From Nitrososphaerales archaeon (GTDB lineage: Archaea > Thermoproteota > Nitrososphaeria > Nitrososphaerales > Gagatemarchaeaceae), in contig JACWAI010000029.1 in assembly GCA_014874415.1 (NCBI GenBank), positions 1 through 45,308 on the forward strand: 45,308 nucleotides of DNA, read 5' to 3'. Below are positions 15,594 to 37,443 of this stretch, piece after piece; positions within the stretch are counted from its first letter, which is position 1, and every line of letters begins with the position of its first letter. The position numbers and the translations under genes are program-made. Under the pieces are notes generated by a model that was not told where the DNA came from, made no database searches, and worked only from the letters and a program-made list of their open reading frames with translations.

Positions 15594-15629
15594 ATGAAGG
15601 TTAGCTCCCCATACGCAGAGAACAGAAAA

Positions 15630-15727
15630 TGGGGCCGTCGAGATTTGAACTCGAGATCGCCAGCGCCCCAGGCTCACCGTGAAGTGCCTTCACTCTGGTA
15701 TGCTGGACCAAGCTACACTACGGCCCC
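15630..15727 (-). tRNA. tRNA-Pro(GGG) with a 22-base intron at a non-canonical position
   Basis: The minus strand folds into a tRNA: acceptor GGGGCCG with CGGCCCC, D-arm with AGCTTGG in the loop, T-arm TCGAG-TTCAAAT-CTCGA, discriminator A and no encoded CCA. A five-pair anticodon stem CCAGC/GCTGG and the loop CTGGGGC with anticodon GGG form only if bases 15673-15694 are removed. The acceptor and T-arm suit archaeal tRNA-Pro. The intron would lie between positions 30 and 31, not at 37/38. A T-run follows the 3' end. Confidence 0.88.
15673..15694 (-). other. tRNA-Pro intron (22 bases)
   Basis: The insert interrupts the 5' side of the anticodon stem after CCAG. Inside it GTGAAG pairs with CTTCAC around a GCA loop, and the flanks CCAG/CTGG can pair in the precursor. 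This could form a relaxed bulge-helix-bulge for the splicing endonuclease. The exact cut sites could shift by a base or two. Confidence 0.65.
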
Positions 15728-15754
15728 ACAAAAACGGGGCCGCGCCGGTGTCAG

Positions 15755-34472: not shown

Positions 34473-35975
34473 TTGAAGACGGCGGTTGCTGCGTTGTTCG
34501 TGGCAGTAGTGGTCATCATCTCGTCGTTCGGAGCCTACGAGCTCTACAGCCAGCCCCGCGGGAACCCCTCGGTCGCCTTGGCTTCTTGCAAGACCGTTCA
34601 GAGCGGGGCCCCGGTGAAGACGCAGACTACAAAAGTCACCCTGGGGGCTGTCACCGAATACAAGATCCCGGGAACGGACCGCTGGCCCAATGCGGTAACC
34701 AACTCCTCCGACGGATCGGTGTGGTTCGCCGAGCAAGAGATCCCGGGTCTGGGGCACCTCTACCCTAGCAATGGCACGTTGGTGGAGTACGCCTGGCCGA
34801 ACTACCCCACCCCCACTCCTCCTGACTGCATCCCTCAGGCCAGCTCATGGGGCATCGCCATCTGGCAAGGTCGAATCTGGGCTGCAGACGAGTTTGGGAA
34901 CATGATACAGGGGTTGAAACCGAGCGACGGGTCCGTCGTGTCGCTCAATGTAACAGGGAAGGGGACAAACCCATTTTGGCTCGCCGTAAGCCCCGATGGA
35001 TATCTCTGGTACAGTTCGAACAACTTCCCGCCTGTCCTGGGCCGGATAGCTCCTAACCTTACAGTTCAGACAATCAGTCTTACGGGATTGGGCACTTATG
35101 AGCCCCTGCAACTCGAATTCGTCAACTCATCTCTGGCCTACCTCTCGACCATCAACTACGCCGAAAACTCCACCACTCATTCCTGCGTCTGCGACGGACA
35201 TATCTACTCCTTCGACCCGACGGGCGTCAGCTCGACCATCTCTCCGACACTGGTAGGAGGGAGGTTCAGGCTGATCGAGCCTACTAGCGTCTCCTACTCC
35301 AATGGCGCCATATGGGTGGCGCAGCATGACGCTTCGTCCATACAGAGCTACAACCTAGTGACGAAGACTTGGACAATCTACCCCACTTCGACGACGCCCT
35401 GGCTTGATGTAACCCTCCCCCTTGTTATCGAATCTGCGGACGGTAACGTGTGGTTCAACGAACACTACGCGAACAAGATTGCCCTCCTAAATCCAAGCTC
35501 TGAGACAATTACGGAGTACAGCGAATCGAGCCCGCCAGCGTCCAATTATACAATGATCCAGAATGATGAATCGATAGCTCTTTCGAGCGGGGGGCTCTGG
35601 TTCACGTCCATATCGGGCAACTACGTGGGTTTCGTAAGCAAGAGCTATGACGCCGGTTTCAGCGTGTCCATAAACGGGACAAACAGAGTAAGCGCTGCAC
35701 CAGGGGGGAATGTGTCGCTGACGATGAAAGTTGGGGGGGCTTGGTCTTCCCCTATGGAGGTCGGAGTCTCTGACTCTGAGAACCACACCTCTTTTCCGGG
35801 CCTGATCAGGATCACTCCAGCAGTGCCATCCGTCCCTGCAGGTATCGGGCCCTACACCCTGGGCGTGAGGATAGGGGTGGGTTCGTCGGCGAGGCCAGGG
35901 GAATATACTGCAATGGTGACGGTGACCGATGGGCTTGTCCAGAAGTCAGCCTACATCTTCATCACGGTGACGTAA
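34473..35975 (+). CDS. Secreted Vgb-like beta-propeller protein with C-terminal Ig-like domain
   Basis: A 500-residue protein. Residues 4-24 form an uncleaved or cleaved signal-anchor helix. Repeats with SSDGSVWFAE, SPDGYLWYS, SNGAIWVAQ and SADGNVWFNE follow, as in virginiamycin-B-lyase-like propellers, with a beta-rich Ig-like tail from about residue 400. Many N-x-S/T sites are present, as in surface proteins. Catalysis is not implied; the lyase name is only a fold label. It begins 22 bases after the acyl-CoA dehydrogenase gene and its 3' end overlaps the convergent flavoprotein gene by 30 bases. Confidence 0.75.
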   Translation: MKTAVAALFVAVVVIISSFGAYELYSQPRGNPSVALASCKTVQSGAPVKTQTTKVTLGAVTEYKIPGTDRWPNAVTNSSDGSVWFAEQEIPGLGHLYPSNGTLVEYAWPNYPTPTPPDCIPQASSWGIAIWQGRIWAADEFGNMIQGLKPSDGSVVSLNVTGKGTNPFWLAVSPDGYLWYSSNNFPPVLGRIAPNLTVQTISLTGLGTYEPLQLEFVNSSLAYLSTINYAENSTTHSCVCDGHIYSFDPTGVSSTISPTLVGGRFRLIEPTSVSYSNGAIWVAQHDASSIQSYNLVTKTWTIYPTSTTPWLDVTLPLVIESADGNVWFNEHYANKIALLNPSSETITEYSESSPPASNYTMIQNDESIALSSGGLWFTSISGNYVGFVSKSYDAGFSVSINGTNRVSAAPGGNVSLTMKVGGAWSSPMEVGVSDSENHTSFPGLIRITPAVPSVPAGIGPYTLGVRIGVGSSARPGEYTAMVTVTDGLVQKSAYIFITVT

Positions 35976-37403
35976 CTGGTTGTGTTCGTGGGCATGAGTA
36001 GCCATGCGATGGTAGTCGTCCACGCTGTAGACGCTAGTCAAAGCTCTCTGTACGACCTCGTTGAGGGCAGGATGGGTGTACATCGAACGCCTCATGTCAC
36101 CGGGACCCTGGTCCCCGGTGTACATTGCGTTCACGAGCTCCTGAATCAGCACCGACGCGTATGGCCCTGCTATGTGGGCGCCGACGATCTTCTCTGTCTC
36201 CCTCTCCATTATGACCTTGACAAAGTAATCCTTGGCTGACATGGCTTCCCCCTTGGCCGTGTTTTCATACTTGTAGAAACCGATGATGACCCCTTCTCTG
36301 CCGAACTTCTCCACGGCCTCCGCCTCCTTCATGCCGACGCCTGCAGCTTCTGGGTACGTGAATACGGCGTGGGGGACCGCGTGGTAGTCGACCTTCACCC
36401 TCCGCTTGAGGACCGCGTTGTAGTAGACTATCTCCGACTCGTAGTTCGCCACGTGCTTGAACAGGAACCTCCCGTCGGCGTCCCCCATCGCCCACACTCC
36501 TGGCTGGGACGTCTCTAGGTACTCGTCGACCATTATCCATCCGCGGCCGTCGGTCTTTATGCCAGCTTTCTCTGGGTGCAGGATACCGCTTGTGGGTCCC
36601 CGGCCAGTAGCCACGAGTATCTGTTCGGCCTCAATTTCCTTCGCGCTCCCCGTCTTTCTGTCCTCGGCGCGGATCAGTCTCTTGCTCCCTGACCTCCTTG
36701 CCTCCTTTACCTCTATGTTGGTCATGATCGTCATGTGCTTGCCGAGGTCCTTCAGGAGCACCTCAGACACCTCTGGCTCCTCTTCCGGCAGGAACTGGGG
36801 GTTGCGCCCCACTATGGTTACCTTCGAGCCCATGGCAGCCAGGAAATGCCCCAGCTCCGCGGCAATGTACCCCCCTCCTATCACGACGACGCTCCCGGGG
36901 AGCTTCTCCAGCTTGAGCACGTCGTCGCTGGCGAGATACCCCACTTCTGCAAGCCCTTTGACGGGCGGAACAATTGTCTGGGAGCCTGTGCACAGGAAGA
37001 TGAGCTTGGACTTGATGGTGTCCGCGCCCACCTTCAGTGTGTAAGGGGCGACGAACTCAGCCGTCTCGTGAAAATAGTCTATGTTCTCAGACGACGACAG
37101 CCCCCGTCGGATGGATTCGATGTCGGCTCCTATGAGCGCCCTCATCCTGCCCATCACCTGCGCGAAGTCGATCGACCTTATCTCGGTGGCGATGCCGAAC
37201 TCGCGCGCCTTCTCGGTCAACCTGACGAGCTCGGCAGGATAGAGGAGGATTTTCGACGGGATGCACCCGCGCGTCAGGCAGATGCCCCCCGGCTCGTCCT
37301 TGTCGATCACGGCGATTTTCATTCCTGGGTTCTCGCTTATCATCGGATCGACCAAGTTCATGGCCGATCCCGTCCCGATTACTATCAGGTCGTAGTCCTT
37401 CGT
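35946..37403 (-). CDS. lpd: Dihydrolipoamide dehydrogenase-type flavoprotein disulfide reductase, probable ACG start
   Basis: A class I flavoprotein disulfide reductase. The redox pair is in CLTRGCIPSK, the NAD loop in VVIGGGYIAAELG, the second FAD motif in VWAMGDADG, and the catalytic His-Glu pair in HPALNE. The first FAD loop GTGSA lies upstream of every ATG, GTG or TTG in this frame; the first ATG (37361) would cut it off. Reading back, ACG at 37403 gives the sensible N-terminus xKDYDLIVIGTGSA and 485 residues. That ACG is 27.5 bases from the centre of a TTTAAA box. Lpd normally serves 2-oxoacid dehydrogenases or glycine cleavage; a mercuric-reductase-like or thiol-related role is possible. 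No 2-oxoacid dehydrogenase lies nearby. Confidence 0.87.
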   Translation of the reverse strand, partial: TKDYDLIVIGTGSAMNLVDPMISENPGMKIAVIDKDEPGGICLTRGCIPSKILLYPAELVRLTEKAREFGIATEIRSIDFAQVMGRMRALIGADIESIRRGLSSSENIDYFHETAEFVAPYTLKVGADTIKSKLIFLCTGSQTIVPPVKGLAEVGYLASDDVLKLEKLPGSVVVIGGGYIAAELGHFLAAMGSKVTIVGRNPQFLPEEEPEVSEVLLKDLGKHMTIMTNIEVKEARRSGSKRLIRAEDRKTGSAKEIEAEQILVATGRGPTSGILHPEKAGIKTDGRGWIMVDEYLETSQPGVWAMGDADGRFLFKHVANYESEIVYYNAVLKRRVKVDYHAVPHAVFTYPEAAGVGMKEAEAVEKFGREGVIIGFYKYENTAKGEAMSAKDYFVKVIMERETEKIVGAHIAGPYASVLIQELVNAMYTGDQGPGDMRRSMYTHPALNEVVQRALTSVYSVDDYHRMATHAHEHNQLRHRDEDVG

Positions 37404-37427
37404 GGGCCACGCTTTACGCCCGCCCGC

Positions 37428-37433
37428 TTTAAA
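37428..37433 (-). promoter_or_regulatory. TATA box of the lpd gene
   Basis: TTTAAA lies just after the end of the upstream membrane-protein gene, centred at 37430.5. The leaderless start predicted from other genes here falls on the ACG at 37403. Confidence 0.6.
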
Positions 37434-37443
37434 CTCGGTCAGG

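Follow-up and report, generated by a model that had tools for sequence, protein, structure and literature searches.

The lpd locus and its 5′ end

The window (the whole 45,308-nucleotide stretch analysed) belonged to G000, a 91.6% complete genome of a Nitrososphaerales archaeon in 114 contigs. It carried the dihydrolipoyl dehydrogenase gene lpd on its minus strand, with the following features:

35946..37403, minus strand: lpd, dihydrolipoyl dehydrogenase, 485 codons counted from ACG; matches NF004947 and Pfam Pyr_redox_2 plus Pyr_redox_dim
37401..37403, minus strand: ACG triplet, proposed lpd start codon; falls in the column where orthologs start with ATG/TTG, with ACG likewise in both nearest species; NF004947 position 1
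37428..37433, minus strand: archaeal TATA-type promoter box, TTTAAA; 27.5 nt between its centre and the A of ACG, matching the genome-wide peak
37408..37410, minus strand: GTG, one base out of frame, not used; its frame stops after 107 aa and is not lpd; no counterpart in relatives
37359..37361, minus strand: ATG, first in-frame canonical codon of lpd in the open reading frame list; 14 codons inside, past the FAD-binding GTGSA loop

The minus strand read ...GAGTTTAAAGCGGGCGGGCGTAAAGCGTGGCCC ACG AAG GAC TAC GAC CTG ATA GTA ATC GGG ACG GGA TCG GCC ATG across the lpd 5′ end; the TTTAAA box (centre at 37430.5) was separated from ACG by 24 bases ending in a CCC run (37406-37404) directly 5′ of ACG. 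On re-reading of this strand, all positions given in the initial annotation proved correct. Its claim that the GTGSA loop was encoded 5′ of every in-frame ATG, GTG, and TTG also held: the first canonical codon was the ATG at 37361-37359, past the loop, and no ATG, GTG, or TTG was present in frame between ACG and the upstream stop (108 nt away) in G000. NF004947 matched the Lpd protein over its whole length (734 bits against a cut-off of 592; profile positions 2-471 of 474), and the residue after ACG was aligned with profile position 2, thereby placing ACG at position 1 and agreeing with the earlier view that ACG at 37403 gives the normal Lpd N-terminus. The predicted N-terminus was (M)KDYDLIVIGTGSA... 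from ACG and MNLVDP... from the internal ATG. The GTG at 37410 was discarded as an lpd start, being out of frame by one base, as first described, and absent in relatives.

Promoter box and leaderless architecture

A position matrix was trained on 1172 genes from about 1.35 Mb of G000 and its congener G024. A TATA-type box was found in 564 of these genes and displayed a sharp peak, with the TTTAWA centre 27.5-29.5 nt from the start codon, which indicated that the lineage was largely leaderless. The lpd box of G000 (TTTAAA, 27.5 nt from ACG) fell within this peak, in line with the spacing typical of leaderless genes proposed initially, and those of the two closest species (TTTATA) were each located at 28.5 nt. 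The matrix score at ACG was 11.3 in G000 and 11.0 and 11.2 in the two closest species, and no other position up to 60 nt away on either side gave a better joint score for the three lpd genes than the ACG column; of the non-canonical codons near gene starts, only 0.43% scored at least 10.9. Among the G000 and G024 genes surveyed, the leaderless position was reached by 94 of 581 TTG codons versus 142 of 844 ATG codons; these nearly equal proportions suggested that this lineage, unlike haloarchaea, was more permissive in its choice of start codon.

Comparison of lpd among relatives

The sequence comparison was applied to lpd of G000 together with its orthologs, most or all of the genomes compared being metagenome-assembled, with contamination estimates of up to 8% in the genus. 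The nearest orthologs came from two independent genomes, G024 (Thaumarchaeota archaeon isolate REEA66; 84% identical) and G010 (isolate SubAcS15-57; 80% identical), and the codon comparison proposed in the initial annotation placed ACG at the same column in both; the start column was thus ACG in 3/3 of the closest species (G000, G024, and G010), a number too small by itself to show that the triplet itself was kept. The same column was ATG or TTG in nearly all of the more distant intact orthologs, and in the few with another triplet there, ATG or TTG preceded that triplet by one or two codons. In a tree of 33 lpd orthologs, the ACG genes grouped together in a single clade (support 100/100) whose sister was a TTG gene, indicating that ACG was gained once and then kept.

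The three ACG species displayed contrasting variation on the two sides of the triplet: (i) codons 1-14 differed by 5-7 synonymous versus 1-2 non-synonymous changes, arguing that the codons after ACG were translated and under selection; and (ii) only 7-16 of the 30 positions upstream of ACG matched. The bases before ACG were ...CCAATC in G024 and ...GGGAAC in G010, part of unrelated upstream sequence that contained no CCC run, so the CCC run was not the cause of ACG. G010 had an in-frame stop 27 nt upstream of ACG with no canonical start between, while G024 had in-frame GTG and TTG 18 and 15 nt upstream of ACG.

Additional lpd copies were also encountered: L131 (G025:C4) and L130 (G048:C23) looked broken, with matches in several pieces, in different frames and with stops, while L129 (G012:C46, match at 3-152) represented another lpd 5′ end in G012, truncated at the edge of the contig, with the same ATG start region as L009.

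DUF2203, a second gene with a proposed ACG start

The second gene identified as apparently starting at ACG encoded a DUF2203 protein (PF09969, E=1.5e-34):

G024:C66:411198-411611, minus strand: DUF2203 gene with ACG start (L216)
Further DUF2203 loci with ACG start: L217-L228, L231, L232, L234, and L249

A search pattern with the downstream motif fixed and any base but G in first place, which a GTG start would escape, recovered 22 genus sequences (21 with ACG, plus G021); with G010 and G024 added and the G003 locus left out, the genus count was 24. The first codon was ACG in 23 of these 24 sequences, and the remaining one (G021) had ACG one codon later; the alignment started at ACG in 12 genus sequences beyond the first candidate. 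Several genomes had an in-frame stop two codons upstream of ACG. In other genera, DUF2203 opened with ACG in g7 (G067, G063, G036, and G061) and g4 (G033), with ACG directly after TAG in G067 and G061, while the homologous column was ATG in G035 (g6), and ATG and TTG were found nearby in G034 (g5) and g2, respectively. Outside the family, most versions of the protein began at a canonical codon about six codons downstream. The predicted N-terminus from ACG was (M)TFENTELHLFTPQEASK....

The first codon was ACG in 19/19 distinct aligned sequences and never ACA, ACC, or ACT, whereas the control Thr of the downstream FTP motif was encoded by ACG, ACC, ACT, and ACA in 8, 5, 5, and 2 of 20 sequences, respectively; ACG accounted for 32% of Thr codons in the genomes. 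The invariant first codon, set against the variable control Thr, indicated that the triplet was kept for itself and not for threonine. DUF2203 was a much stronger case for an ACG start, resting on 24 genus sequences plus five genomes of other genera, while lpd rested on three species. No DUF2203 gene was detected in the 91.6% complete G000, and thus both ACG genes were seen together only in G010 and G024.

The DUF2203 box was located about 10 nt further upstream than the boxes of leaderless genes; a strictly leaderless DUF2203 gene was thus not supported, and the mRNA probably carries a short leader of about 10 nt, judging from the box position. An element, GGCGAGTnAnAnn, upstream of the DUF2203 ACG was also conserved in the genus.

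Frequency of ACG starts

The start-codon survey covered 0.33 Mb of G000, 1.0 Mb of G024, and 0.8 Mb of G005. ACG was seen at the leaderless position 22 times versus 13 expected, a slight enrichment, and 12 of these cases had no canonical alternative. On inspection, the candidates were reduced to lpd and DUF2203, which did not support ACG starts as a general habit: GAPDH had ATG just before ACG, and several others had canonical starts close by. A scan of about 400 ortholog pairs yielded no third convincing ACG-start gene, indicating that ACG starts were rare. A screen run automatically for coding sequence 5′ of every canonical start proved too noisy; lpd escaped it as well, owing to the unused in-frame triplets that precede the gene in G024.

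Alternative explanations

Four alternatives to direct use of ACG were weighed. The initial annotation had allowed for a read error in the CCC run or an ATG-to-ACG change, and an assembly or read error or a private recent mutation might be suspected from the 114-contig assembly and from the CCC run preceding ACG. Both ideas fell with the comparison of relatives: ACG was present in two independently assembled species with 16-20% protein divergence, different neighbouring bases and no CCC run, and it represented one well-supported gain common to three species, making this explanation scarcely credible. Translation might instead start elsewhere, at an upstream near-cognate codon, at the internal ATG at 37361, or by frameshift from the GTG at 37410, and the in-frame GTG and TTG of G024 and the open upstream frame of G000 would leave room for this. 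However, G010 contained no canonical codon before its stop at -27; the upstream triplets would precede the predicted 5′ end, being situated between it and the box; the GTG at 37410 was missing from relatives; and initiation at the internal ATG would cost the protein its FAD-binding loop, the codons of which evolved under protein-level selection. For DUF2203, stops no more than two codons upstream left no room. A start elsewhere was accordingly judged unlikely.

The remaining two alternatives concerned how an ACG at the start position is read. C-to-U editing would turn ACG into AUG in the mRNA, so that the ribosome meets an ordinary AUG; ACG at a conserved start column that is ATG in relatives recalls the edited starts of some chloroplast genes, and strict conservation of ACG fits editing as well as direct use. 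The replacement of the codon by TTG in sister genes, however, suggested relaxed start choice, and we know of no C-to-U mRNA editing in archaea, which further counts against editing and leaves it quite improbable. A special initiator tRNA (e.g., one carrying a CGU anticodon) or a Thr-tRNA used in an unusual way could start both Lpd and DUF2203 and would account for their keeping exactly ACG and not other near-cognate triplets, but ATG, TTG, and GTG starts were common in the same genomes; this explanation appeared very improbable, slightly more so than editing. No CGU initiator-type tRNA was found by pattern and Rfam searches among the tRNAs in the stretches read, where no initiator tRNA at all turned up.

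Proposed mechanism

Direct use of ACG was the preferred and simplest explanation: translation of lpd in this clade probably does start at ACG, a start that has been stable in evolution and would be accepted directly by the initiator tRNA. More generally, ACG is most likely a genuine, rare, and stable start codon in this archaeal family, decoded directly by the initiator tRNA. Natural ACG initiation on a leaderless lpd mRNA, as first suggested, thereby gained support from ACG in relatives and from the box spacing. The sequence-level evidence comprised the position and conservation of ACG, translation of the following codons, the box spacing, and the second gene.

From these data, we infer where the lpd transcript begins, that methionine is the first residue, and that the ordinary initiator tRNA decodes ACG, and the following steps are proposed. 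The promoter box would set the 5′ end of lpd mRNA at the A of ACG or within a base or two; the small ribosomal subunit and initiator tRNA would accept ACG at this 5′ end, with methionine being inserted; and the initiator tRNA would pair with the first and third bases of ACG, tolerating C against A in the middle. In Saccharolobus structures, the start codon of leaderless mRNA is paired to the initiator tRNA, and the 5′ triphosphate helps binding (PMC11698992); such a contribution could make up for a poor ACG codon. Two published observations count against a strong ACG start: (i) ACG gave 0.1-1.5% of the ATG level in an E. coli reporter test (PMC6925171), and (ii) no product was detectable from UUG on a haloarchaeal mRNA whose leader was very short or absent (PMC4574771). 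It is conceivable, albeit doubtful, that ACG counts as a legitimate start codon throughout an entire family of Nitrososphaerales-related archaea, their initiation apparatus (initiator tRNA or factors) being tolerant of the middle-base mismatch, and that particular genes retain ACG for low or regulated output.

Relation to known start codons

ACG starts are known from yeast ALA1/GRS1, AAV VP2, and plastid ndhD and psbL. As in lpd and DUF2203, ACG marks the start in these eukaryotic and chloroplast genes and has a middle-base mismatch with the initiator tRNA; however, yeast and virus ACG starts mostly yield an additional form by scanning, and the chloroplast base is edited, while the ACG of lpd and DUF2203 would be the only start, at or near the 5′ end. 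The AUU of E. coli infC is likewise a rare start conserved in one gene, but it is a different codon, on a leadered mRNA with Shine-Dalgarno sequence, and serves regulation, of which the ACG genes have given no sign yet. Start selection on leaderless archaeal mRNA is thought to be strict, there being no Shine-Dalgarno pairing to help, and the retention of ACG across species (in DUF2203, across genera) makes this strictness open to testing with a small set of synthetic mRNAs. Because standard gene finders accept ATG, GTG, and TTG, routine annotation of these genomes would truncate Lpd past the FAD-binding loop and shorten DUF2203. Comparison of relatives can also reveal hidden start codons in uncultured lineages.

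Leaderless AUG/GUG genes of Haloferax and Saccharolobus resemble lpd in having a TATA box about 27-28 nt upstream and a start codon located at the 5′ end of the mRNA or close to it (PMC4574771, PMC11698992), but they differ in the start codon itself, and the haloarchaeal reporter showed weak activity with GUG and none with UUG (PMC4574771). A GUC start on a leaderless Halobacterium salinarum mRNA, as cited in PMC4574771, is likewise a non-standard start on an archaeal leaderless mRNA; going by that citation, it involves another codon and one transcript, while the ACG described here occurs in two genes and has been conserved among species. A search of open-licence papers yielded nothing relevant on ACG start codons in archaea, PMC4574771 and PMC11698992 coming nearest. 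Near-cognate starts are known as a class, while a conserved archaeal ACG start had no precedent found in the papers searched.

With respect to tRNA genes, many of those in the genus carried introns, and the window itself contained an intron-bearing tRNA gene at 15629-15728 on the minus strand, which had Rfam tRNA matches and for which ARAGORN gave no clear anticodon.
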